A DNA stretch of 64,000 nt from Acidimicrobiaceae bacterium (lineage in GTDB: Bacteria; Actinomycetota; Acidimicrobiia; Acidimicrobiales; Ilumatobacteraceae), in contig BGOG01000004.1 in NCBI GenBank assembly GCA_003569125.1, forward strand, positions 1-64,000. Direction: 5' to 3'. How positions within the stretch are numbered: the first letter of the stretch is position 1; every line of letters starts with the position of its first letter. The translations under genes were made by a program, and so were the position numbers. Below are positions 3,323 to 40,199 of this stretch, piece by piece. Under the pieces are notes generated by a model that saw nothing but the letters and a program-made list of their open reading frames with translations, was not told where the DNA came from and did no database searches.

Positions 3323-3703
3323 GGGGCTGACAGGTTTCGACGTCAGATTCGATGTTCGAGCGTGCGACCCGAGTTGCTCAGACTCGTAAAACGGGGCAAA
3401 AAAATAACTGCCAACAAGCAGTTCGCTCTCGCCGCTTAATTGCGGTAGGAGAGCAACCGTGAGCCGCAAGGTCGCACGGGGCCAATTCACCGCAGCCCGG
3501 CAACAGAAGCGGGGAATGACAGCGAGAAAGAATGCTGACGTCGAGAAAGACCGATGACCGAATGGAAAGACATTCCGCGACTTGAGCACCTAGTGCACTT
3601 TGTAACCGACCCGCCGGTAACGCTGCGTAGCGTTGAAGTGGGAATGGTCGTATCACGGGCGCTCAACGGCTGATGGACGGGGGTTCGATTCCCCCCAGCT
3701 CCA
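3323..3703 (+). ncRNA. ssrA: tmRNA (transfer-messenger RNA)
   Basis: The 5' end GGGGCTG pairs with CAGCTCC at 3696-3702 (one G-U) to form the acceptor stem. A discriminator A follows at 3703, and CCA is not encoded. The T-arm is visible as GGGGGTTCGATTCCCCC at about 3679-3695. The mRNA-like part ends in an open frame whose last residues are ANKQFALAA, stop TAA at 3437-3439. This matches the usual ANxx-ALAA degradation tag. The resume codon is probably GCC at 3410; GGC at 3395 in the same frame would give a longer tag. The tRNA-like half and tag release stalled ribosomes and mark their products for proteolysis. An inverted repeat GTAAC/GTTAC lies just upstream at 3294-3311. Confidence 0.95.
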
Positions 3704-3763
3704 CTTGTCTACAAGAAAAGATTTCTTCAGTAAATTTCTTGGACGTTCTGATATCGTCGCGCG

Positions 3764-7831: not shown

Positions 7832-9069
7832 TTACGACATCGCCCGTAAATTTTTCTTGACGAGCAAAAAATAGAACGCTGTCACGAGCATCAGCAAACC
7901 GGCAACTGAAAACGTCATCGGCGCAGAATCAACTCGACGCGCAATTACGCCCACGAACAACGCCCCGATCGGTGCGAGTCCTGACATCAACAATGAATGC
8001 ACCGCCATCACTCGACCCATCACCTGTGGCGGTGTGTTGTTCTGGATCAATGTCTGGCTCAAGTTCATATAAAAACCACCACCCATCCCCCACGCAAACA
8101 ACAACACGCTCATCATCAAAATTGATCTGGACTGACCGAGCACGATTTGCACCGACCCACCCCAACACAAGCCACACATGAACCACAAACCTTTTTGGAT
8201 CATTTTGTGGTTGTACCGCAAGATTGCGACCGAGGTCACGAATTGACCGATTCCGAGCATCGCAAACATGAAAGTCGTCTGACTACCAGTGGCACCAGCC
8301 TGTTCTTTTGCAATTTGTGGACCCAAAACTATCCACGGTGCCATCATGAACAAAATTGAGCCACTGAGCAGCACATAAAAGGCTCGTACCTCCGCGTGTC
8401 CGCGAATAAAATTAAGTCCACCAAATATTTCTTCGCGCAATCGTCGCCGCTCAGTGTTCAAACTGGCTGGAAGTTCTAATTTAAGCAACACGAAAAATCC
8501 AAAAAGATTCAATAGCGCCTGAATCCAAAAAGCACCTTTGATTCCCCAGATTGCAATTGCTGGTCCTGCGGTTGCCGGACCAATTATGAGTCCGAGATTG
8601 TTACCAATCGTATTGACCGCGATTGCGCCAACAAGTTTGTCTCTTGGCACGACCGAAGGCACAATCGCCGACCGAACTGGCGAACCGATCGCGATAAAAT
8701 GCCGGCAATAAATGATCCGATGATCGCCCAATTGATCGTCATCTGTTTGGTCGTGACCATCACCGCAATCACGGTCGTGATCGCCAACGCACCAAGTTGA
8801 CTGACCATCAGGAGCGTGCGCCGATTCATGTGGTCGCTCATCACGCCAACGGGCAAAGAAATCAGCAAAACCGGAATGCCCATCACGAATAGGATCATTC
8901 CACTGATGTCAGATTTTGCACCTAGTTCGAGTGCCAACCAAACAAACGAAAATCGCTGGGTGCTCATCACGAGTATGAACAAAAAACTGTTTATCCATAA
9001 AAGGCGAAACGGACGGATTGCGAGAAGTTCGCGTGGTTGAATTCCCCGAGTTTTGATTGGTGAATTCAC
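7832..9069 (-). CDS. MFS transporter, DHA3/EntS-like, with one frameshift
   Basis: About 410 residues with roughly 12 hydrophobic helices. The N-terminal part (down to about 8700) has FRLLWINSFLF and the loop SDHMNRRTLL after helix 2. The C-terminal part starts IAIGSPVRSAIVPSVVPR and includes NTIGNNLGLIIGPATAG, phrases typical of the DHA3 drug or siderophore exporters of the MFS_3 type. The two halves are in different frames. The join is restored by adding one T to the run TTTT near 8697, giving GIFIAIGSP. GTG 9069 is a plausible start; an open frame continues upstream to 9162. It is divergent from the SDR gene. Export substrate unknown. Confidence 0.75.
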
Positions 9070-9177
9070 GGATCCGAGTCTCACACGAATTAGATACAAA
9101 CAACGAACTGCAGACTCACCATCAGATCTACGCCGAGAGTATGGTGGCACATATCTGGCCATATACGATTCAAAAGT

Positions 9178-9981: not shown

Positions 9982-10686
9982 TTACTTTGAACTGATTCTC
10001 AAAAGATCTGCGAGCGAGAGCCCGCCCGTGTAGATCGCCATACCGATAGCCACGTCAATGTCCATCGCCAACAGTGCACGCACATCATCCAGAGTCGTGA
10101 TGCCACCAGCAGCAGTAATCTCAAGTTTTGTTGCGGCTCGCAACTGTGCAAACCAATCCAAATCGGTACCTTGCATCATCCCTTCTTTGTCAACATAGGT
10201 GCAAAGAAACCCGCTGCATAATTCAGAAAATTGTGCCAAAGATTCTTGAGCCGTCGTGTTTAGCGTTGTCGCCCAACCATCCACGACGACTTTTCCAGAC
10301 TTCGAGTCGAGTGCAACGACTAATTTTTGCCGACCAACACTGTCAACAATGTTTTGAATCTCAGGAGTAAACGCCGCGGTGCCGACGATCACGCGGTGTG
10401 CACCTAGGTCGACTAGTTTTTGCGCGCGAAGCGCAGTTCGAACTCCACCACCGACACGACACTTGGCTCGACTCGCCAACATCTCGATGATCGGTGCGTT
10501 ATCGCCAACACCCATTGCCGCATCCAAATCGATTACTTGAATTTCTTCAAATCCCGCGAATTTTTCAAGCATCTCAAGCGGGTCTGGGCCTTCGAGTGCT
10601 TTCGTCTTACCTTGGATCAGCTGAACAACTTTGCCACTTTGAATATCAATACACGGCACAACAATCGGATTGCGACGAATGTTCAT
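9982..10686 (-). CDS. hisA: ProFAR isomerase HisA (histidine biosynthesis)
   Basis: A 234-residue beta/alpha barrel that isomerises ProFAR to PRFAR, the fourth step of the pathway. The first catalytic Asp is in [14 protein letters not shown] (about residue 14), the second in [12 protein letters not shown]. Two phosphate loops are visible: GGGVR (about 78-82) and AAGGITT (about 191-197). The sequence does not look like the bifunctional PriA usual in actinobacteria; it has the CRVGGGVR and [10 protein letters not shown] wording of single-function HisA. It is the last gene of the his operon, and its ATG overlaps the hisF stop by 4 bases. Confidence 0.9.
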
Positions 10687-11432
10687 CGACGAACCGCGAT
10701 TCCTGCATCGGCGACTGACTTTTTGACTTGATCGATAGTCAACGAACCAAAATGAAATACCGATGCTGCAAGTGCCGCATCGGCATCTACAAGAATTCTT
10801 GCAAAATCTTCGACTGCTCCTGCCCCACCCGAAGCGATCACCGGTATTCGAACTGCGTCACGAACTGCTTTCGTAAGTGGTTGATCAAAGCCTGTCTTCA
10901 CGCCATCTGTATCCATTGAAGTCAACAAAATCTCACCAGCACCAAGTTGCTCACCAACAACGGCCCACTCAATAACATCGAGTTGCTCTGGCTGACGACC
11001 ACCTTTGGTGTGCACTCGCCACATTTCTCCGTCGCGTCGTGCATCAATCGCCAGCACCACCGCTTGTGCACCAAATTCGGCGCTCAATTCTTGAATGAGT
11101 TGTGGTCGCCATACCGCTGCGCTATTTATGCTCACCTTGTCGGCACCTGCATGCAAAACTTTTCGTGCATCTTCAACGCTGCGAATGCCTCCACCAACTG
11201 TTAGCGGAATAAACACTTCGCGTGCAGTTCGCGCGACTAAGTCAACCATCGTGTTGCGATTTTCGTTTGTTGCAGCCACATCCAGAAAAACAAGTTCGTC
11301 GACGCCTTCGGCGTTATAGCGCGCAGCAAGTTCAACAGGGTCGCCCGCATCGCGCAGTTCAAGAAAGTTGACGCCCTTGACGACGCGACCATCGGCGACA
11401 TCTAGACAGGCGATTATTCGCTTTGCCAACAT
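10683..11432 (-). CDS. hisF: Imidazole glycerol phosphate synthase cyclase subunit HisF
   Basis: A 249-residue barrel starting [20 protein letters not shown], with catalytic Asp at about 11 and a second Asp in [13 protein letters not shown] near 130. The phosphate loops are VGGGIRS and ASGGAGA. It uses ammonia delivered by HisH to convert PRFAR into imidazole glycerol phosphate and AICAR. The ORF directly abuts hisH upstream (11432/11433) and overlaps hisA downstream, fitting production of the HisH-HisF heterodimer in equal amounts. Confidence 0.95.
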
Positions 11433-12059
11433 TTACAGACTCGCAAAATTCTGCATCACGAGCCGACCGAAATCTCCGGATTTCTCTGGGTGAAACTGCA
11501 CGCCAAAGATATTGTTACTTTCGATAACTGCCGAAAACTGATCGCCATAAGTTGTCGTGAACACGGTTTGGGCAACTACCGGACAAAAATAGCTGTGCGC
11601 ATAATAGGCAAAGAGCTCACAGTAAGTATTTGCATTACTAACCGATGAATTAACGAGTGCTGATTCAATTAAGCGTGATTGCTTGACCTCATCCAGTGTG
11701 TTCCATCCCATATGTGGAATGCGCTCGGATTTTTCGAATTTCATCACACTTCCAGCCATCAACCCGAGACCGATTGCTTGCGGCGCCTCGCAACTATTCT
11801 CGAAAAGAATCTGCATTCCAAGACAAATACCTAGATATGGCACACCAGATTCAATTTGCTCGCGCAGCGAGTCGCGAATTTTTAGTTCGTCCAGTGCGCT
11901 CGACAGTTGACCAAAATGCCCGACCCCCGGCAAAATAATTTTGGTTGCAGTTCTAATCGACTCAGCGTCTTTGATTAGTTTGAAGTCGACATTAAGCAGT
12001 TCTAAAACATTGGTTACTGATCGCAAGTTTCCTGCACCGTAATCAATAACAGAAATCAC
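11433..12059 (-). CDS. hisH: Imidazole glycerol phosphate synthase glutaminase subunit HisH
   Basis: A 208-residue class I glutamine amidotransferase. The nucleophile Cys is in GICLGMQIL (about residue 79), and His-Glu of the triad are in [10 protein letters not shown] near the C terminus. The start [15 protein letters not shown] is the family norm. It hydrolyses glutamine and channels ammonia to HisF. Its ATG overlaps the hisB stop by 4 bases. Between about residues 130 and 150 ([13 protein letters not shown]) it carries the usual HisH loop near the active site. Confidence 0.95.
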
Positions 12060-12643
12060 AGCAACCCTTTGGTGCTTGGTAGTTGATCTTTGAGACGAAC
12101 ATCAGTTGAACACGCATAACGCATCGCCCGAGCGAAACATTTGAAGATCGCTTCAATTTTGTGATGTGTCGAGCGACCATATAAAACCTTGGCGTGAAGA
12201 TTTGCCCCGGCATTATTTACGAACCCACCAAAAAAGTCATGCACGAGTTCGGTTTGCAAATCACCGACCAGGCGCGCACGAATCAGATCACTGTAAATAA
12301 GGGCTGGTCGGCCACTTAAATCTACGGCAACCACAGCAAGGGTTTCATCCATTGGCAAGACGAAATAGCCGGCGCGATTGATGCCAGTTTTTTTACCCAA
12401 AGCCTTTGCAAAAGCCTGACCGATTGCTATGCCAACGTCTTCAACCGTGTGATGTTGATCGATATCCAAATCTCCTCTGGCGACCACCTTGAGATCAAAA
12501 CCTCCATGCTTTGCAAACAACTCAAGCATGTGATCGAAAAACCGAATACCCGTTGAAATCTCGTAACGACCTTTGCCCTCGATCGTTAATTGCACCAAGA
12601 TATTAGTTTCTTTGCTGACCCGCTTAATCGTTGCTTTTCTCAT
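12056..12643 (-). CDS. hisB: Imidazoleglycerol-phosphate dehydratase HisB
   Basis: A 195-residue monofunctional dehydratase with no phosphatase half. The manganese-binding repeats are visible as [16 protein letters not shown] (first half) and the [14 protein letters not shown] motif near residues 61-74. The matching second-half motif is [16 protein letters not shown], with [15 protein letters not shown] towards the end. It removes water from IGP to give imidazole-acetol phosphate. Its ATG overlaps the hisC TGA by 4 bases. Confidence 0.95.
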
Positions 12644-13752
12644 AACAGCCTTTCTAATTCATTGATAAATAGTTTCATCTGTGGTTTTGTTCCGATTGTT
12701 ACACGCACACAACCAGCGATCTCGTAACTCCGATCTCTGACCAAAACACCACGAGTCGCCAGCTGATCACGAACAAATGTTGCTCGCGAACCGACCTCAA
12801 AGAGCAAGAAATTTCCGGTGCTCACAAAATATTTGACACCAAGACGGTCGAATTCGGCTTGGACAAATTTTCTCGACTCACGAACTTCGGCGACATAATT
12901 GGATAAATATTCATGGTCTTGTACCGCTGCAAGCGCCGCCGCTATCGCCACGACATTGACACTGTAGGGCGACTGCGCTTTTTGAACCCACCCGATATTG
13001 CGCGCGTCCGAGAACAAACATCCGAATCTGATTCCTGCCATGCCGTATGCCTTAGAAAAAGTTCGACTGACGAACAGATTTGCGTACTCGTCTATCAAGT
13101 CGAGCACCGATACATCGGCGAACTCAACATACGCTTCGTCAATCAACACAACCGAATTCGGCGCGGCGCGTAGAACTTGAACTATCTCATCACGCGAGAG
13201 CGCTGTACCAGTTGGATTATTCGGGTTGGCGAGAAAAATTGCCGCAGTTTCTCGATTAATCGACGCCAATAATTTCTTCAATGGAAACTTCAGGTCGTCG
13301 GCGATTTCAAACTCAACCTCGGTGATTTTCGCCCCACCCAGTTCGCCATAGAAGCGATACATCGCATAAGACGGATGCACCACCACAAGTTGTTGACCAT
13401 GCTCGACGAATGTATTGACAAGCAACGAGATCGCTTCATCAGTGCCATTTGTAAACACCAACTGCTGGGGGGCGACATTGAAAAACTCGGCGATTTTTAG
13501 TTTTGCTTGCGAATACTCCGGATACATACTCATTGCATTGGCGTCGACTAGTTTCGAAATCGCTTCAATCACTTTCGGCGAGCAACCAATGGTGTTTTCG
13601 TTGAAATCTAAGCGCATCTGGTTGGCACGACCTTGCGATGGCGGCGAATATGGGCGCATATTCTCAACTGCAGCACACGGCACTGCTGGGCTAATTGTCT
13701 CCGCTGGGCTAACTGGCACTGTCGGCGAATCGGCCATCGCCGTTTGATTCAT
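12640..13752 (-). CDS. hisC: Histidinol-phosphate aminotransferase HisC, in frame with upstream hisD
   Basis: A fold-type I aminotransferase. The motif [13 protein letters not shown] marks the true domain start near 13615. NPNNPTGTA and [10 protein letters not shown] follow, and the PLP Lys is in [16 protein letters not shown]. It transaminates imidazole-acetol phosphate with glutamate. No stop codon separates it from hisD. The frame runs from the HisD C terminus (AHARSIEVR) through about 30 Pro/Ala/Thr-rich residues into HisC, so a HisD-HisC fusion is possible. Separate starts at ATG 13752, 13737 or 13659 cannot be excluded. The stop overlaps the hisB start. Confidence 0.85.
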
Positions 13753-14970
13753 TGTGCGCACTTCAATTGATCGGGCATGAGCCTCAAGACCTTCGGCTCG
13801 AGCCAAAGTAGTGACGCTCGGAGAGAGACTTAGCAAGGCTTGTGCCGAAAGTTGTTGCACCGAAATGACTTTCACAAAGTCTGCCGCCGACAACCCGCCG
13901 CGCACGGTGGCGACACCAGATGTTGGCAAGATGTGATTCGGCCCACTTGCGTAGTCACCAGCCGCTTCAGTGCTGTAAGAACCAATAAAAATAGAACCGG
14001 CATTTTGAACTTTGTCGAGCCACTCGCGATCCTTCGATCGATAGATGTTCTGGGGCCAGAGCATTGACGAATTCAAATGCTTGATCGATTGATGGGCAAA
14101 CAACCACGGCACTATTGACGCTTATCGATCTCTCGGCAATTTTGCGTGTCGACAGGCCCTTGAGTTGTTCGGCAACTTCGAGTTGAACCGCCGAGGCAAG
14201 TTGCTGTGAACACGTCAGCAACAACGCCGAAGCATTTACATCGTGCTCACATTGCGCCAACATATCGGCGGCAATCCACTTTGGGTTACCGGTTTGCGAC
14301 ACGATAAGAATTTCTGAAGGCCCAGCCACGAAGTCAATCGCCGTATCCGACGAAACTAATTTTTTTGCCGCCGCTACATATGCGTTGCCCGGCCCAACGA
14401 TTCGTGTAACGCGCGAAATTGACTCTGTGCCATATGCCAAAGCGGCAATCGCTTGGGCTCCACCGATTTTCAAGATTGTTTTTATGCCTAGCCACGAAGC
14501 CAACGCCAACATCTCTGTCGTCGGCTTTGGGCAAACAACCGTGATCGTCTTGACACCAGCGACTTGTGCAGGAATCACGGCCATCATCAGGGTTGAAAGC
14601 AGCGGGTAACTTCCCGCAGGCACGTAGACACCAACCGAATCAAGCGCCCTGACAACTTGCCCAGTGATCGTCCATCACTTGAAGTCAGATTCGTATTTTT
14701 CGGCAACTGCTGTTCGGCAAATGCACGAATATTTTGTGCCGCTACTTGCACCGCCGAGAGCAATTCAGGCGACAACACTCCTGTGGTTGCAATCTCGAAA
14801 CTTGTGCCCTGAAAATTGTCGAATTGTTTCGCATATTCAATCAGCGCGACATCACCACGCGCACGCACATCGGCAATTATCGGTGCCACGACCAGCGAGG
14901 CTTCATCCAGCCGTGCGCTGTTGCGTTTGAGCAAAGATTCGGCGTTCGCTAAATCGATTATTTGCAGCAT
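13753..14970 (-). CDS. hisD: Histidinol dehydrogenase HisD, two apparent single-base frameshifts
   Basis: Joined over three frames, it gives a roughly 406-residue HisD that oxidises histidinol to histidine in two NAD-dependent steps. Visible landmarks are VYVPAGSYPLLSTLMM (once the frame is corrected), GPGNAYVAAAKK, the zinc-ligand region AGPSEILI, QCEHDVNASALL with His, APEHL with catalytic Glu-His, and the C-terminal AHARSIEVR. The breaks are near 14659 (GG shortened, giving GQVVRALDSVG when repaired) and near 14033 (A run shortened, giving IEKDREWL). Its ATG shares one base with the hisG stop. It probably functions in the cell, since the operon is otherwise intact. Confidence 0.85.
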
Positions 14971-15872
14971 CAGACCACAATCTTGTTGAGCGGATATTCA
15001 ACGATGCCATGCGCACCAGCCGCTTTCAATCGCGGGATAATCGTGCGTACGGTCGACTCATCCAGAATCGTGTTCAGCGCCAGCCAGTTCTTGTCGGCCA
15101 GATTCGAAATCGTCGGCGTCTTTAGCGCCGGCAGAACACCGAGAATCGCCTGAAGATTTTTAGTCTCGACGTTGAGCATCAGACCAACCTTGCCCATCGC
15201 GTTGATCGCACCTTCTAGAAGCATCTTGATGTCCAGCATCTGTTCGCGTTTCACCGGGTCGGTCCAAGATTTGGTGTTGGCGATGAACTTTGTGTTCGAC
15301 TCGATGACGGTCTCAACGATGCGCAGATTATTGGCACGCAACGAAGACCCCGTCTCGGTCACTTCGACAATTGCATCAGCCAAAATCGGTGGCTTGACTT
15401 CGGTTGCCCCCCAACTGAACTCGACTTTTGCGTTCACATTATTGGCTTGCAGATAACGCAATGTTGTCTGCACGAGTTCAGTGGCGATCACTTTGCCCTC
15501 AAGATCTTTCACTGATTGAACTGGCGAAGACTCTGGCACCGCAAGCACCCAACGCACACGTCCGAAACTTTGTTTGGCATAAACCAAATCAGCCACCGAC
15601 TCGACATTCGCGCCACTTTCAGATATCCAATCTTGACCCGTCAGACCAGCATCTAAAACACCATCTTCGACATAGCGGGCCATCTCTTGGGCACGAATCA
15701 ACATGCACTCAATATTCGGATCATCAATCGCCGGAAAATATGAACGACTGTTGACTGTTATCTGAAACCCAGCCCGACGAAACAGGTCAATCGTCGCCGC
15801 TTCTAAACTCCCCTTAGGAATACCCAGTTTCAGTATTGGCTTGCTAGTTAACTTGCTAGTTTTATCGCTCAT
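14970..15872 (-). CDS. hisG: ATP phosphoribosyltransferase HisG, long form
   Basis: A 300-residue enzyme of the long, self-contained HisG form. The N-terminal catalytic lobes run from [14 protein letters not shown] to [17 protein letters not shown], the PRPP-binding ETGSS stretch being near residues 172-176. A C-terminal ACT-like regulatory region of about 80 residues starts near [10 protein letters not shown] and is the usual site of histidine feedback inhibition. No HisZ is needed. It carries out the first step, PRPP + ATP to phosphoribosyl-ATP. The ATG overlaps the hisI stop by 4 bases. Confidence 0.95.
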
Positions 15873-16264
15873 GATTTTGCTCCATATACGGTTTCGGGTG
15901 AAAACACTTTCTCTGAATTAATTTTCCATTGATCGTTCTGCCAAGTGCGAAAAAAGCAACTCTCATAACCTTCGTGACATACGCCTGGTCCGAGCGGATC
16001 AACCAAAACTAAAATCGTGTCGCTATCGCAGTCGGTCTTGATTGAAACCACCTGCAACTTGTGACCCGATGACTCGCCTTTGAGCCAAAGCTGATTTCGT
16101 GAACGGCTAAAAAAAACCACGTTGCCAATCTCGAGGGTTTTTGCCAAAGCCTCATCATTCATGAAACCGACCATCAAAACCTCAAGAGTTTTTGAGTCTT
16201 GGATCACTGCCGGCACTAAGCCATTGAGTTTTTTAAAATCTACCAATTGATTTGCGACTGACAT
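15869..16264 (-). CDS. hisI: Phosphoribosyl-AMP cyclohydrolase HisI
   Basis: A 131-residue stand-alone HisI without a HisE pyrophosphatase domain. The family signature is seen as [18 protein letters not shown], followed by the metal-binding [11 protein letters not shown] and [15 protein letters not shown], which carries the zinc Cys residues. It opens the adenine ring of PR-AMP. A strong ribosome site, GGTGGAGAG (16270-16278), lies 6 bases before ATG 16264. It is the first structural gene of the operon, just after the attenuator. No hisE or hisN is in this window. Confidence 0.95.
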
Positions 16265-16323: not shown

Positions 16324-16356
16324 AAACAAAAAACCCGCCGGATAAACCGACGGGTT
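16324..16356 (-). terminator. His operon attenuator terminator
   Basis: On the minus strand AACCCGTCGG (16347-16356), a 5-base loop TTTAT and CCGGCGGGTT (16332-16341) form a 10-bp stem with one G-T pair. The run TTTTTTGTTTATA follows. This is a strong intrinsic terminator. It sits between a His-rich leader peptide and hisI, where it would stop transcription before the structural genes. The 5' arm can instead pair with CGACGGG (plus 16394-16400) inside the leader to form an antiterminator. Confidence 0.9.
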
Positions 16357-16382
16357 GAACTTCGAAAATTAAATTTGAAGCG

Positions 16383-16466
16383 TTACGAATGAGCCCGTCG
16401 TGTCACGTGGTGCACGTGATGATGCTTATGATGGGCGACGATTGCAAAGTTATTCACTTCCTGCAT
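16383..16466 (-). CDS. hisL: His operon leader peptide (HisL-like, 27 residues)
   Basis: A 27-codon frame, ATG at 16466 and TAA at 16383, preceded by GAGGGG (16471-16476) as a ribosome site. Residues 12-20 read HHKHHHVHH, seven His in nine codons, and an eighth His is at 26. Such a run next to a terminator and immediately upstream of hisI-hisG is the hallmark of ribosome-mediated attenuation. Scarce charged tRNA-His stalls the ribosome on these codons and favours the antiterminator. Codons 9-11 contain CGTCG, which can pair with CGACG in codons 22-24, the expected 1:2 hairpin. The peptide itself probably has no further role. It is too short for usual gene callers and lies opposite a plus-strand open frame. 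Confidence 0.9.
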   Translation of the reverse strand: MQEVNNFAIVAHHKHHHVHHVTRRAHS

Positions 16467-18137
16467 GGTACCCCTCGGCTAATCAATCGCCAACTAACTA
16501 GGCTTCGCTGCATAGACATTTTCAACAAAACGACCAGCAATTCAGTTTCGCAAACCGAGACTGACCCATCGGCGCCGCAAAAACATGGCAGCCAGTCACC
16601 AAATTGGACAGCACCAGTTGCGGGTTTGATTTCATCTATTTACGCGGTCTGCATCGCCACTTTGACTGCAGTTTTAATCAATGTCGTGACACCACTGAAT
16701 GCAGTCGGTAGTGAATTCATCGACCACACCCCAAAGTGGCTGAAAAATTTGGCGATACAAACTTTCGGCACAAACAACAAATCGGCGCTGAAAATTGGCA
16801 TGTTGCTGGTTATCTCTTGGCTCGCACTGCTCGCCGGCTCAATCGCGCGACGAAAACTGCTGGCTGGCATCAGCGTGATCGCAGGCTTTGGCATTTTTGG
16901 CGGATTAATTTCTTCGGCTCGACCTTCACAATCTGCACTGGCTGTACTTCCTTGTTTGCTCGGGGCCATATTCGGATCTCGACTTCTCGCAAAATTAATC
17001 AAAATAATCACCCGACATGATTTTCCGATTGAATCACCACGCGAATCACGCGCACCGTTGGGCTGGGACCGTCGTCGGTTTATCGCGACTGCGAGCAAGA
17101 CGGCGCTAATTTCTGCGCTCTTTGGTACCGTCGCAAGCAGGCTCGAAAATAAAAAACTTTCGGAGGTTCGTCAAACAGCGCAAAACTCGTTGCCGAAAAT
17201 CGGTGCGGGCAACGATTCTGTTGCGACGAAGATTCCATCTGGCACGCAAATATTCGCCGAGACACCATTCATCACACCGAATAGAGATTTTTATCGCATC
17301 GATACCGCACTCTCGTTGCCGCGGATCGATATCAAGACCTGGTCGCTTCAAATTGGTGGCATGGTAAAAACACCACTGAAACTTTCGTATGACGACCTGC
17401 TCGCACGACCAATGGTTGAACGCACGATCACAATTTGCTGTGTATCAAATGAAGTCGGTGGACCGTATATCGGTAATGCAGTTTGGCAAGGCGTACTTCT
17501 CGCAGATTTACTCGAGCAAGCAGGTGTTGATCCACGTGCAGAACAAATATTTGGCACGAGTGCCGATGGTTGGACGTGCGGGTTTCCGGTTGCCGCGGCC
17601 CTCGATAAACGAGATGCGATGATCGCAATCGGGATGAACGGAACTGTGTTACCACTCGAACATGGCTACCCCGCTCGTGTGATTATCCCCGGGCTCTACG
17701 GATACGTCAGTGCAACAAAATGGTTGACCAATCTTGACTTAACTACATGGCGTGAGGCAGAAGGATATTGGGTTCCGCTCGGTTGGTCGCGTGATGCGCC
17801 GATAAAAACCCAGTCACGAATTGATGTGCCGCGCCGCGATGAAAACGTGGCGGCAGGACGAATTGCAATTGCTGGTGTGGCGTGGGCGCAACAACACGGC
17901 ATCGAAAAAGTTGAAGTTCGCATCGATTCTGGTGACTGGAAAAAAGCGACGCTTGCGCTCGACTTCAGCGACGACACTTGGCGCCAATGGAAATATGAAT
18001 TTGACGCCAAACCTGGCGAATATCAAATTCAAGTGCGTGCCACCGACAAGACTGGCGAAACACAAACTCAAGAAGTCAGTCGGCCAGACCCAGATGGCGC
18101 GACCGGATATCACACCAGAACAATAAAAGTAATTTAG
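16389..18137 (+). CDS. Membrane-anchored sulfite-oxidase-type molybdopterin oxidoreductase
   Basis: Four or five hydrophobic helices (about residues 75-210) are followed by a DRRRFI-type segment. Next comes an oxidoreductase molybdopterin-binding domain (about 290-460) and a C-terminal Mo-cofactor dimerisation domain (about 470-580). The Mo-ligand Cys is in ITICCVSNEVGG. LPLEHGYPARVIIPGLYGY and SATKWLTNL are family phrases. It probably reduces or oxidises a small sulfur or oxyanion compound outside the membrane. The start is unsure. The ATGs at 16389-16431 are only the antisense of the His codons of the his leader, and no better in-frame ATG/GTG follows before the first helix. It converges on the dehydratase-like gene. 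Confidence 0.8.
   Translation: MSPSCHVVHVMMLMMGDDCKVIHFLHGTPRLINRQLTRLRCIDIFNKTTSNSVSQTETDPSAPQKHGSQSPNWTAPVAGLISSIYAVCIATLTAVLINVVTPLNAVGSEFIDHTPKWLKNLAIQTFGTNNKSALKIGMLLVISWLALLAGSIARRKLLAGISVIAGFGIFGGLISSARPSQSALAVLPCLLGAIFGSRLLAKLIKIITRHDFPIESPRESRAPLGWDRRRFIATASKTALISALFGTVASRLENKKLSEVRQTAQNSLPKIGAGNDSVATKIPSGTQIFAETPFITPNRDFYRIDTALSLPRIDIKTWSLQIGGMVKTPLKLSYDDLLARPMVERTITICCVSNEVGGPYIGNAVWQGVLLADLLEQAGVDPRAEQIFGTSADGWTCGFPVAAALDKRDAMIAIGMNGTVLPLEHGYPARVIIPGLYGYVSATKWLTNLDLTTWREAEGYWVPLGWSRDAPIKTQSRIDVPRRDENVAAGRIAIAGVAWAQQHGIEKVEVRIDSGDWKKATLALDFSDDTWRQWKYEFDAKPGEYQIQVRATDKTGETQTQEVSRPDPDGATGYHTRTIKVI
16495..16525 (-). promoter_or_regulatory. Possible his operon promoter
   Basis: On the minus strand TTGAAA (16525-16520) is followed after 19 bases by TAGTTA (16500-16495), about 30 bases before the leader ATG. 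The spacing is long and the match modest, so this is only a candidate. Confidence 0.3.
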
Positions 18138-30446: not shown

Positions 30447-33181
30447 TTAGTTCGCGCGACCGTGACACATCTTGTATTTTTTGCCAGAGCCACAAGGGCA
30501 CGGTGAATTGCGCGGGGTTTTTGACCAGTCGGGTGCACCAAAGACGCTGGAGCCCGAATTGGTCTTCGAATTTGTCACCGGCTTGTCATCAACATTCTCG
30601 TCGGATGTCTGTTGAATGTTGCTCAAAGTACCCGACGGCGAACTGTCGTTGACGACTTGAACATGCATCACATATTTGACGAAGTCTTGGGCGATGCCCT
30701 TCATCAAATTGCCGAACATCTCGAAACCTTCACGCTGCCATTCGATCAGCGGATCTTTTTGACCAACTGCGCGCAAGTTGATGCCCTCCTGCAAATAATC
30801 CATTTCTTCCAGATGCTCTCGCCAACGCTGGTCGATGATTCTCAACATCACTTGACGCTCGACTTCTCGCATCACAGACTCGCCCATTTCACTCTCGCGT
30901 TGGGCGTAGAAACCGCTTGCGTCGGCCATCACCAGGTCGTACATCTCGTCCGTCGAATCACAACTCGCAAGATTTGCCGCGGCGATTTTCGTTGGCCAAA
31001 AAGTCACGAGTTCTAGCGCCAAACCAGATACATCCCATTCGTCGTCGACTTCTGCTACACAGTGCGCTTCGATCAAGGCATCTACGGCCTCGGCCAGATA
31101 CTCCATCGCCGCCGCTTTTAGATCAAGCCCTTGCAAAATCTGATCGCGACGCTGATAAATAACTTTGCGTTGCTCGTTCATCACTTCGTCGTATTTCAAA
31201 ACATTTTTTCGAACTTCACCGTTTCGTTGTTCGACGGTCGTTTGCGCACGCTCGATTGCTTTCGTGACCATCTTGGCTTCGATCGCTTCGTCGTCCGGCA
31301 ATGCACGACCCATCACCCAAGACAATGCCCCGGTTGCAAATAGTCGCATCAACTCATCGTCAAGACTTAAATAGAAACGACTTTCGCCCAGATCTCCTTG
31401 ACGCCCGGAACGACCACGCAATTGATTGTCGATTCGGCGACTCTCGTGGCGTTCAGTGCCCAAGACATATAAACCACCGATTGCGCGAACCTTGTCGCCT
31501 TCAATTTTGCACTTCTCGATGTAGTTTTTGAGCAGTTCGTGGTATCGCTTCTGCGCTTTGTCTCGAGCAGTTATGAAATCTGGCGGCATCATTTCAAGTG
31601 CAACTGGCAACGCAAACTCGTCGAGCAAAGTTTCTGGGCTGTGACCCTCTTTAAGAACATCCTGACGCGCAAGACCTTCGGGGTTTCCACCAAGCAAAAT
31701 ATCAACTCCACGACCCGCCATGTTCGTCGCCACGGTAATCGCACCAAGACGACCAGCCTGAGTTACAACCATCGCTTCGCGAGTGTGCTGTTTGGCGTTC
31801 AAAACTTCGTGGGGAATACCGCGCTGTTGAAGTTCTTCGACAACTGCTCGCTCTTTTCGACGCTTATCGTGCCAACAAGAACTGGTTGACCTTTGGCATG
31901 CCGTTCTTCGAGATCTTCTACGACTGCCTCAAATTTCGCGGCTTCTGTTTTGAAAATCAAGTCGGCCTGGTCAACGCGCACCATTTCACGATTTGTCGGG
32001 ATCGGAACCACCTGCAGGTTGTAGGTGTTCATCAACTCTGCGGCTTCGGTCTGCGCGGTGCCGGTCATACCCGAAAGCTTTTCGTACATTCTGAAATAAT
32101 TCTGCAAGGTGATCGTCGCCAAAGTTTGATTCTCTTCTTTGATCTTCACGCCTTCTTTGGCCTCGACCGCCTGATGTATGCCTTCACTCCACCGCCGACC
32201 TTCAAGAATTCGACCCGTGAACTCATCAACAATTTTGATCTCGCCATCTTGGATGATGTAGTCCTTATCGCGGTGATAAAGCACGGCTGCTTTCAGCGCC
32301 ACTTGCAATTGATGCACGAAATTTTGCTGCACTTCGTCGTAAAGGTTTTCGATGCCCAGTTGCTTCTCGACTTTTTCGATACCGACCTCGGTCGGCACGA
32401 CGATTCGTTTGTCTTCTTCGACGTCGTAATCGACGTCGCGAACCATCGTGCGCACAATCGACGCGAATCGGTAATACAACTTTGCCGCGTCAGCAACGCG
32501 ACCTGAAATAATCAGCGGCGTGCGTGCTTCGTCGATCAGAATCGAGTCAACCTCGTCGACGATTGCGAAACTAAAACCACGCTGAACTTTTTCGTCGAGC
32601 GTGCCAGCCATGTTGTCGCGCAAATAATCGAATCCGAACTCGTTGTTCGTGCCATAAGTTATATCCGCCGCATAATCAGCGCGTTTCTCGGCAGAACTTG
32701 CCCGTCGCCCAGAGATGACCAGACCAACTGACAGACCAAGCCAACGATGAATTTGTCCCATCCATTCGGCATCTCGTTGAGCCAAATAGTCGTTCGTCGT
32801 GATTTGGTGAACACCCTTTCCCGAAAGACCGTTGAGATAGGCCGGCAGAGTTGAAACAAGAGTTTTACCTTCACCAGTTTTCATTTCGGCGACCCAACCA
32901 GCGTGCAACGCCGCGCCACCCATAAGTTGAACGTCGTAATGTCGCTGCCCAATTACGCGAGTGGCCGCCTCGCGCACCACGGCGAAAGACTCGATCAACA
33001 AATCATCGAGCGTTTCGCCACGGTCAAGTCGAGATTTGAACTCGCTGGTCTTGCCCCGAAGTTCGGCTTCGCTCATTGCCGACATTTGGGCAGCAAAGGC
33101 ATTGATATCGGGCAAGATATCGGCTAGGGCCTTGACCTTCTTGCCTTCGCCGGCTCGCAGGACTCGATCGAGGATTGCCAT
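30447..33181 (-). CDS. secA: Preprotein translocase ATPase SecA, one apparent frameshift
   Basis: Two frames join into a SecA of about 911 residues. The first frame (33181 to about 31836) has [17 protein letters not shown] (Walker A), [16 protein letters not shown] (Walker B) and GMTGTA. The second has [35 protein letters not shown] and a C-terminal zinc motif [14 protein letters not shown]. At about 31836 the run AAA in TCGAAAGAA has lost one base. Repair gives [20 protein letters not shown], the normal SecA sequence. SecA is essential, so the break is very probably a sequence error. The start overlaps the end of comF by 58 bases. Confidence 0.93.
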
Positions 33182-37786: not shown

Positions 37787-40199
37787 CTACTTGATAAAAG
37801 TTTTTTGCCTTCTCGACACCCGTATCTCGCGCCAACGAACTACCAATACACCTATTCCAATTAGCGTCAACAAGTAGGCAAAAATATCTAATTTTGTGTA
37901 ACCATAATGCAATCGCACTTCTTTTTGCGTCGGCACCACAACCATCATGTTTGGCGCAACACGAAATGGTCCTTTTGCGCCAGTTACTTTCCAATTCGGA
38001 AAGTAACTCATCCGCACAAGAATTGGTTGACCGATCTGATCGACGCTAAATGAAATCGCCGAATCTTCGAGAACAAAATTCGTGACTTTCGTTGGTTTTG
38101 TTTGAACTACTTTTATCGCCTGAGACGGAGTGACAATATCGACTCGACGACTCGATTTGCCCGGTTCGCCGTCACGACGACTCAGATCAACAGCCACATC
38201 AACTCGTTGCCACGAGTCGGGCCCGCTGGCAACCGGCATCGCCGACCAATCTTCTGGGTGCTGAAACCAACTTGTTCCAATTTCTAACCAGCGCTCTTTG
38301 ACGTCACCGGTTCGACTATTCACGATCACCGGTTGCACATTTAGTGGCACGACCAACTCGCTGTTGACTGCTTGATAAATAACCCATGGTCCACTTCGTT
38401 TCACTTCAATAAGAGAGGCTTGCAGACTGGCTTGCGCAATCGCTTGTTTTGTGAATGCCAGAAAATATTTGACGCCAAGTTCTTGCATGTAGCGAACGCC
38501 AAGACCCGCATTGTTGTCGTCGTAACGCAACTCGCGAACTGGATTGCTGCTTTGCTTTGACATCGCCGCCGAAGTAATGAAGTGATACGGGGTCGTCCCG
38601 GACGCTTCGAAATTCAAACCTTCCATCGACCCGATACAACCTTTTGTCCAATGTGGTAACAGCATCAACGACATCGTCGTTCCGTATTTATTTAATTCTC
38701 CGCTGCTCTCCCAAAGCGCACGACCACAACCGTGCGACTTGTCGTTACCCAGTGCCTTCATTGTTTCGACGAGATCGTGATACTCGGCGTACGCGCTCTT
38801 GCCTTCGTAGCCGGTGAAGTTCCATCGCGCCCAACCGTCGACGAAACCATCGTTTGACGCGTTGGTTGAGATCGGCCCCCACTTGTATTGCACCGCGCCA
38901 GTGGTGTCAGTAACGATTTTTCCGAACGGAAGTTCTTGAAATCTAAAGCCAATTATGCCGACTACCAATATCGTCAGCGCGGTTGCCCACCACATATTGA
39001 ACTGGGCGATGTTTCGCAGCGACACTAATGGCGCCACAGACTCGTAGGTTTCTTTGGCGAGTGCATTCTTTGCGACTCGCAACAACCCAAACACGCGCGC
39101 CAGACCGACGACGAGTTCATATAGCCCGATCATCATCAACATGTAGCGAAGCAAATAAAGAAACGGCAACAGTCGTGGGTTCCATAACATGCCGATGATT
39201 GGCAGACCACCACGACTTACAAAAACACCGATCACGAGTGCGATGCAATAAACCCCCATCCAGATGCCGACACGATTGCGACGCAAAATACATGCGACGA
39301 ACCCGACGACTGCGAACAGTGTGATGAAAATATTCCAATACAAGCGGCAATGGAAAAAACATCTGCCAAAAAGAGTCGGCTGTGCCACTTGGACGAGGTT
39401 CGTATTTCATATCTGTCATGAACGCATGACTTGTCAAAAATGGAACGACCCAGAATGACGACAACAAGATAGATGTACCGATAATCAGGCTTGCAGAGAT
39501 CAAAACTTGACGGCCGGTATTTAGCGCTTTCCACAAAATTGCAATTAATGCAACGCCACCAAAAACAAAAAGCAAAACGATTCCGTGAGAAAGCGCGCTT
39601 AATGCCAGCACACAAGCCGTGATCATTCGACCACGATCTTCGTTCATTGCACGAATGAATAAACCAAATGTCAGCACCGCGAGTGAAAGTGCTATCGAAA
39701 AAGAAAACTCACCCGCCATGGTCGACGCGATGTTTCCGCCGTAGATCGTGAAACTTTCGTCGTATAAAAAAACAACCGAAGCCAGAGCCAGAATCTCTGG
39801 AATCGGAAACAGCAGCCGAGAAAACTTGCCGAATAGCCAGGTGCAGACGGGCAAAGTCAAAATACCGATTACCGCGATCATCTTCAGCGCAATGCCGTAA
39901 GGCGCTATCAAATCAACAACCAATACCAATAAAGCCGGAATCAACATGTAGAACCGATACATCGGAAATCCCGCATACCAGTCGTTGCTCCATCCATTTA
40001 GACGAAAGTGCGGCAACATAAAATCGCGCAGGAAGGCTGGGCCATAGACATGAGCGCCCATGTCACCGCCTGTAGGCGTATTGTTTGCGAAAATCAATTC
40101 TGGTTGCAATGTCAAGAACAGCATCAAAGTTGCACCGCCAACAATCAACGCCGAAATTATTTGCTGAGGGCTCCAGCCACTGAACTTTTTGAGATTCAC
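37787..40199 (-). CDS. Large membrane protein, PTPS-related / glycosyltransferase-C-like, one frameshift
   Basis: About 804 residues. Some 10 hydrophobic helices in the first 450 residues are followed by a soluble, beta-rich extracellular part and one last helix. The phrase TPTGGDMGAHVYGPAFLRD with GWSNDWYAGFPMYRFY is typical of actinobacterial '6-pyruvoyl-tetrahydropterin synthase-related' membrane proteins. The two halves are in different frames. Adding one T near 39342 gives MFFPLPLYWNIFITLFAVVGF. Topology suggests a GT-C-type enzyme or lipid-linked sugar handling. Function is not proven. It lies directly upstream of phosphomannomutase. Confidence 0.8.

Follow-up and report, generated by a model that had tools for sequence, protein, structure and literature searches.

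A likely his-operon attenuator of acidobacterial origin in a freshwater actinobacterium

In a stretch of 64,000 nucleotides (hereafter the window) from the 1.78-Mb, 78% complete genome of a freshwater actinobacterium, the minus-strand his operon is preceded by an element that we regard, with high confidence, as a ribosome-mediated transcription attenuator that came with the operon from Acidobacteriota (Table 1). An initial annotation of this DNA had proposed that a His-codon leader, an antiterminator and a terminator together control hisI, and this core claim was strongly supported by the comparative evidence. The operon has the order hisI-G-D-C-B-H-F-A; hisI starts at 16264 and, as first described, has its own ribosome site (here GGTGGAG). 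With NCBIfam profiles, hisI, hisG, hisC, hisB, hisH, hisF and hisA were identified, HisA scoring below its model cut-off, and hisD was recovered in pieces.

Table 1. Features of the his attenuator and its operon in the window
Feature	Coordinates	Strand	Basis and details
Candidate -35 (TTGGCG)	16488..16493	-	Predicted; 17 bp from candidate -10; TTGGNG kept in same-genus relatives, 17-18 bp spacing
Candidate -10 (TACCAT)	16465..16470	-	Predicted; overlaps the first-read ATG; all same-genus relatives have TANNNT at this position
Leader ORF as first read	16383..16466	-	27 codons from ATG plus stop; peptide MQEVNNFAIVAHHKHHHVHHVTRRAHS*
Likelier leader ORF from GTG	16383..16457	-	VNNFAIVAHHKHHHVHHVTRRAHS*; GTG kept throughout close-group same-genus relatives
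Regulatory His run, codons 12-20 (HHKHHHVHH)	16407..16433	-	His codons vary at third positions only
Strand 2 (CGACGGGCT), antiterminator 5' arm, within leader codons RRA	16392..16400	-	Pairing tests, folding
Strand 3 (AACCCGTCGG), common to antiterminator and terminator	16347..16356	-	Pairing tests, covariation, folding
Strand 4 (CCGGCGGGTT), terminator 3' arm; U-rich tail from 16331	16332..16341	-	Terminator scan, covariation
hisI, first gene of controlled operon	15869..16264	-	NCBIfam PRK00051 above cut-off
hisG, hisD (frame-broken), hisC, hisB, hisH, hisF, hisA	9982..15872	-	NCBIfam profiles

Several genes of the window are split over frames, namely hisD (13967-14970), secA (30447-33181) and those at 7832-9162 and 37787-40199; in the relatives L002 and L003 the pieces of hisD share a single frame, and these breaks are probably assembly or sequencing indels. 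The plus strand carries a tmRNA gene (Rfam RF00023) at 3323-3706. A second pair of HisF-like proteins (G000:C1:26541-29423), 33-44% identical to HisF, is perhaps of the glycan-modifying type (WbuZ/AglZ).

The 27-codon leader with HHKHHHVHH at residues 12-20 was found at the minus-strand place first given for it, running from an ATG at 16466-16464 to a TAA stop at 16385-16383 and holding seven His residues within nine codons, a run that is also present in relatives. It was the sole His-rich short ORF (7 or more His residues and a His share of 25% or higher) of the 64-kb window, and 60 random first-order Markov windows yielded one comparable ORF in total. In five relatives of equal length, the codons that encode His in all of them differ at the third position only. 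At 16420-16404 the His codons also form a nearly perfect inverted repeat, reading TCACGTGCATCACGTGA in relatives; most relatives in both genera that carry the operon keep it, and it is perhaps a pause hairpin.

The 10-bp terminator with a T run at 16356-16332 was present as described, with 7 G-C pairs among its 10, a TTTAT loop and then TTTTGTTT, and so was the complementarity to its 5' arm, in which CGACGGG (16400-16394) matches CCCGTCG (16354-16348) exactly over 7 nt. By simple scan, such a terminator was not rarer than chance (1 found, 2.9 expected in 2 kb), and the fold z-score was modest (-2.0); the hairpin alone is not significant, and the proof is carried by conservation. The leader, its His run and the terminator were present in 7/7 same-genus genomes with hisI, so that the conservation of run and hairpin that the initial annotation had called for was found in the alignment. 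Close same-genus relatives kept strand 2 and shared 90-94% identity in the leader and 88-97% in the terminator, while drift left the DNA upstream 28-70% and the gap between terminator and hisI 23-47% identical. The leader of one relative (L006) has an additional HHV repeat. Another relative (L008), whose HisI is only 60% identical, has the leader MFVIHHAAHHHMTHRALV* and replaces the pair CGACGGGCT:AGCCCGTCG by AGGGCTCT:AGAGCCC, keeping the pairing through a shift.

In an eighth same-genus genome (G025), leader, His run and terminator lie beside a truncated hisI. Here the whole attenuator and the first hisI codons (L009:1280-1580) are followed directly by an SDR gene, which in the window lies beyond hisA; deletion of the his operon has left the switch behind as a scar. 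An operon-type HisF occurred in only 9/29 genomes of the window's genus and was absent also from three genomes that are 90-91% complete. Several species of this genus are probably histidine auxotrophs.

The competition between the 2:3 (antiterminator) and 3:4 (terminator) pairings, likewise part of the initial annotation, was borne out by recoding, covariation and folding. Compared with synonymous recoding of the leader based on his-gene codon usage, the 2:3 duplex was stronger over 79 loci (Wilcoxon p=3.8e-14), in the window (p=0.02) and at all 13 Acidimicrobiia loci (p <= 0.056), and it was also stronger with its own strand 3 than with the strand 3 of other loci (p=2e-6), although these p-values overstate independence, the loci being related. 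Near the stop, strand 2 takes the form CGNCGGGC (RRA), GGGCGGGC (GMGG) or GCGGGTCCT (VRVL), in different codons and frames. The terminator pairs covary, with 13 double-changed cells vs 3.6 in shuffles, and covariation of 2:3 alone was modest, with fewer compensatory changes than in the terminator. When folding was computed for the RNA before strand 4 exists, with ribosome footprint sizes that are textbook approximations, 2:3 formed at 77/79 loci with the ribosome on the first His run and was absent at 78/79 loci with the ribosome at the stop.

The antiterminator also formed in such folding without any ribosome, and the proposed 1:2 protector therefore does little here. For this third pairing of the initial annotation, CGTCG:CGACG, the CGTCG in codons 9-11 is in place but is weak evidence: neither in the window (p=0.24) nor at any of the 13 Acidimicrobiia loci did the duplex exceed synonymous recoding, and a weak excess appeared over all 79. 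A protector pairing is usual, but not essential, in ribosome-mediated attenuators. When the full element was folded to equilibrium under ribosome footprints, the terminator won almost everywhere, with 10/77 loci switching, and in the window it always won, even with a stalled ribosome; this approach was discarded as a measure of switching. The mechanism therefore depends on kinetics, as in classical attenuators. Since strand 3 of the window has AACCC, not AGCCC, its antiterminator is weaker (-10.9 kcal/mol) than those of close relatives (about -15 to -17 kcal/mol).

In the mechanism that we propose, the transcript would begin at the leader start codon or no more than a few bases from it, and the mRNA on which the leader is translated would be leaderless or nearly so. 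Under a shortage of charged tRNA-His, a ribosome would stall in the His run, leaving strand 2 (16400-16392) free to pair with strand 3 (16356-16347) ahead of the synthesis of strand 4; with 2:3 formed, no terminator would arise, and hisI-G-D-C-B-H-F-A would be transcribed. When histidine is ample, the ribosome would reach the stop codon ending at 16383 and cover strand 2, strands 3 and 4 would then pair, and transcription would stop near 16331-16322.

The operon itself is foreign to its host. This operon type was present in only two of the 27 genera of the family, and across the family the HisI scores formed two groups: full-length matches in the window's genus and a second genus (g5) gave 189-269 bits, and the other genera about 64-111 bits. 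A His leader was found near 0/49 native-type hisI loci and near 0/28 native hisG loci, an absence that is qualified by the different arrangement of native operons, which may start elsewhere. The order hisI-hisG-hisD is common to the two genera and Acidobacteriota, whereas many native operons have hisI after hisF; HisG of the two genera is mostly 73-82% identical to Bryobacterales, vs 39-48% to the best native Acidimicrobiia matches. A HisG tree placed the two genera inside Bryobacterales, its exact nodes being moderately supported. Grouping them with the natives of their own order cost 280 log units and was rejected in an AU test (p-AU 1e-64), in which the control, with the natives alone as a clade, was not rejected. 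An earlier test, with the two genera and the natives on one side of a branch, gave no rejection (p=0.44), the attachment point of the long native branch being uncertain, and was replaced by this sharper one. Exclusive monophyly of Bryobacterales was not rejected either (p=0.47), and distribution is therefore the main basis for the direction of transfer, the operon type being widespread in Acidobacteriota and confined to two genera in Acidimicrobiia. To judge from these comparisons, operon and attenuator were very probably acquired together from Acidobacteriota. Of the initial view of an enterobacterial-type attenuator in an actinobacterium, the attenuator logic thus stands, but the element is not natively actinobacterial: it is a member of a distinct family, frequent in Acidobacteriota, and would have arrived with the operon.

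A scan of named genomes with the HisI alignment, whose matches were mostly Bryobacterales and related Acidobacteriota, revealed a His-rich leader before hisI in 76/80 loci, and the same layout as in the window in 70/74 loci of Acidobacteriota type. Typically, the leader is followed by a gap of 23-35 nt and then by a GCCCGCC hairpin with a U-run. Beyond Bryobacterales, a His-rich leader was found at 17/23 further Acidobacteriota hisG loci, a few of which are doubtful, the ORF criterion being lenient; three hisG-first operons had leaders of the MVIATVSRHHHHHH type. Among 296 Actinomycetota genomes, a covariance model of the element (R1) exceeded 33 bits only in the window's genome (67) and in one genome of the second genus (62), scores in the two Acidimicrobiia genera being 62-68 bits, and those elsewhere in the phylum sample at most 33 bits. 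Among 247 Acidobacteriota genomes, two scored above 50 bits, because the motif diverges outside Bryobacterales, and the His leaders beyond that order were found directly, not by R1. The model offers a means of annotating this his attenuator family. Three loci titled Bordetella, Arcobacter and Chthoniobacterales (L036, L068 and L081) have HisG sequences that all fall among Bryobacterales, and the first two carry the attenuator too; their titles or binning are probably wrong.

These data bear on several other readings of the element. In one of them, the His-rich ORF would be the gene of a functional small protein, such as a metal binder, with the hairpin as a plain terminator of its transcript and a separate promoter for hisI. 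This would suit a conserved, His-rich ORF that a terminator follows, but is very unlikely: apart from the His run, the ORF varies freely in length and sequence, its end is preserved across reading frames through RNA complementarity and not as peptide, it always lies upstream of his genes, and the 2:3 pairing exceeds synonymous recoding. Direct sensing of uncharged tRNA-His or histidine by the RNA, with the leader ORF as incidental, has a parallel in the T-box-like his control proposed for Corynebacterium (PMC3896937); it is barely conceivable here, since an Rfam search of the window and 13 related loci gave no riboswitch or T-box match at cut-off and the conserved RNA is only about 80 nt long, consisting mostly of leader codons, strand 2 and terminator. 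Likewise, His leaders have evolved more than once elsewhere (PMC9413887), yet an independent origin of the attenuator in these Acidimicrobiia, rather than inheritance with the foreign operon, is highly improbable in view of the shared operon start, the HisG identity of up to 82% to Bryobacterales, the leader end RRAHS/RRAHL and the terminator common to both groups, and the rejection of vertical descent with the natives of the order.

The start of the leader is the point at which an alternative weighs more. The initial annotation had placed the start at the ATG at 16466 and read GAGGGG as its ribosome site, which would make the mRNA not leaderless; in the window GAGGGG lies 4 nt before this ATG, and most same-genus relatives have in-frame upstream starts. 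We nevertheless regard this start as doubtful and as the less likely one, since ATG and GAGGGG both overlap the conserved promoter-like block of TTGGNG, 17-18 bp and TANNNT (in the window, TTGGCG, 17 nt and then TACCATGCAGGAAGTGAATAAC), with the ATG on the TANNNT at the -10 position, and since an indel in the relative L004 puts the upstream start out of frame, so that only the GTG corresponding to 16457 remains. In 57/66 Acidobacteriota loci, 8-10 nt separate the end of a TATACT-like -10 box from the leader ATG that follows; this distance leaves no room for a ribosome site, and the mRNA should therefore begin at or next to the AUG, the leader mRNA being probably leaderless. In the window's genus, the distance from TANNNT to the GTG AAT AAC that follows is 7-8 nt, and the leader of the window probably starts at the GTG at 16457, as the first codon of a leaderless mRNA. 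The position of the -10 box thus suggests a leaderless start strongly in Acidobacteriota and less strongly in the window. A simple promoter scan was not discriminating.

Taken together, we lean, with modest confidence, towards a broader reading, in which an undescribed his attenuator family, widespread in Acidobacteriota, has leaderless leaders and, in some lineages, lacks the protector hairpin, so that untranslated transcripts would read through, and in which it passed to Actinomycetota complete, together with its operon, and has since been maintained there by selection. A complete his attenuator case is now found in both phyla. It would appear that a switch coupled to translation, which relies on the host for codon reading, promoter recognition and termination, can move between phyla with its operon and be kept, and the probable leaderless starts represent a testable variant of the textbook mechanism.

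With regard to earlier work, a survey of amino-acid operons in actinobacteria reported no RNA structures before his operons (Seliverstov et al. 2005; PMC1262725), and, according to a 2010 survey, almost none of the attenuators predicted in Acidobacteria had assigned functions (PMC2965389). A literature search, with subscription journals largely outside its reach, found no his attenuator described for Acidobacteriota or Actinomycetota, and priority is uncertain. In Rfam, no family matched the attenuator at cut-off in the window and 13 related loci, RF00514 (His_leader) remaining below its gathering cut-off; near-matches to sroD and anti-hemB, at about half of their cut-offs or less, were judged to be chance, driven by the terminator hairpin. 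The enterobacterial his leader (RF00514) likewise has a leader peptide with His codons, an antiterminator and an intrinsic terminator before the his operon; it differs from the present element, which is probably leaderless, in which 2:3 and 3:4 are supported but the 1:2 protector is not, and which has no Rfam match. The candidates described in Firmicutes, in the Bacillus cereus group, Peptostreptococcaceae and Erysipelotrichales, are similarly predicted His leader peptides with terminator and antiterminator found by comparison, but belong to another phylum and have 3-5 His codons in a row (Ashniev et al. 2022; PMC9413887). Leaderless attenuator leader peptides are known in Streptomyces lividans (trpL, leuL, ilvL, thrL and metL; PMC8079986), at the 5' end of the mRNA and in several cases followed by a terminator; these serve other amino acids and genes, with no His leader among them. 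The T-box-like hisD 5' UTR of Corynebacterium glutamicum is also an RNA-level his control in an actinobacterium, but lacks a His-rich leader peptide, and a mechanism based on uncharged tRNA has been proposed for it (PMC3896937). Compared with these systems, the mechanism is of a known kind; what is new is the family, together with its hosts, its probable leaderless start and its transfer as one unit.
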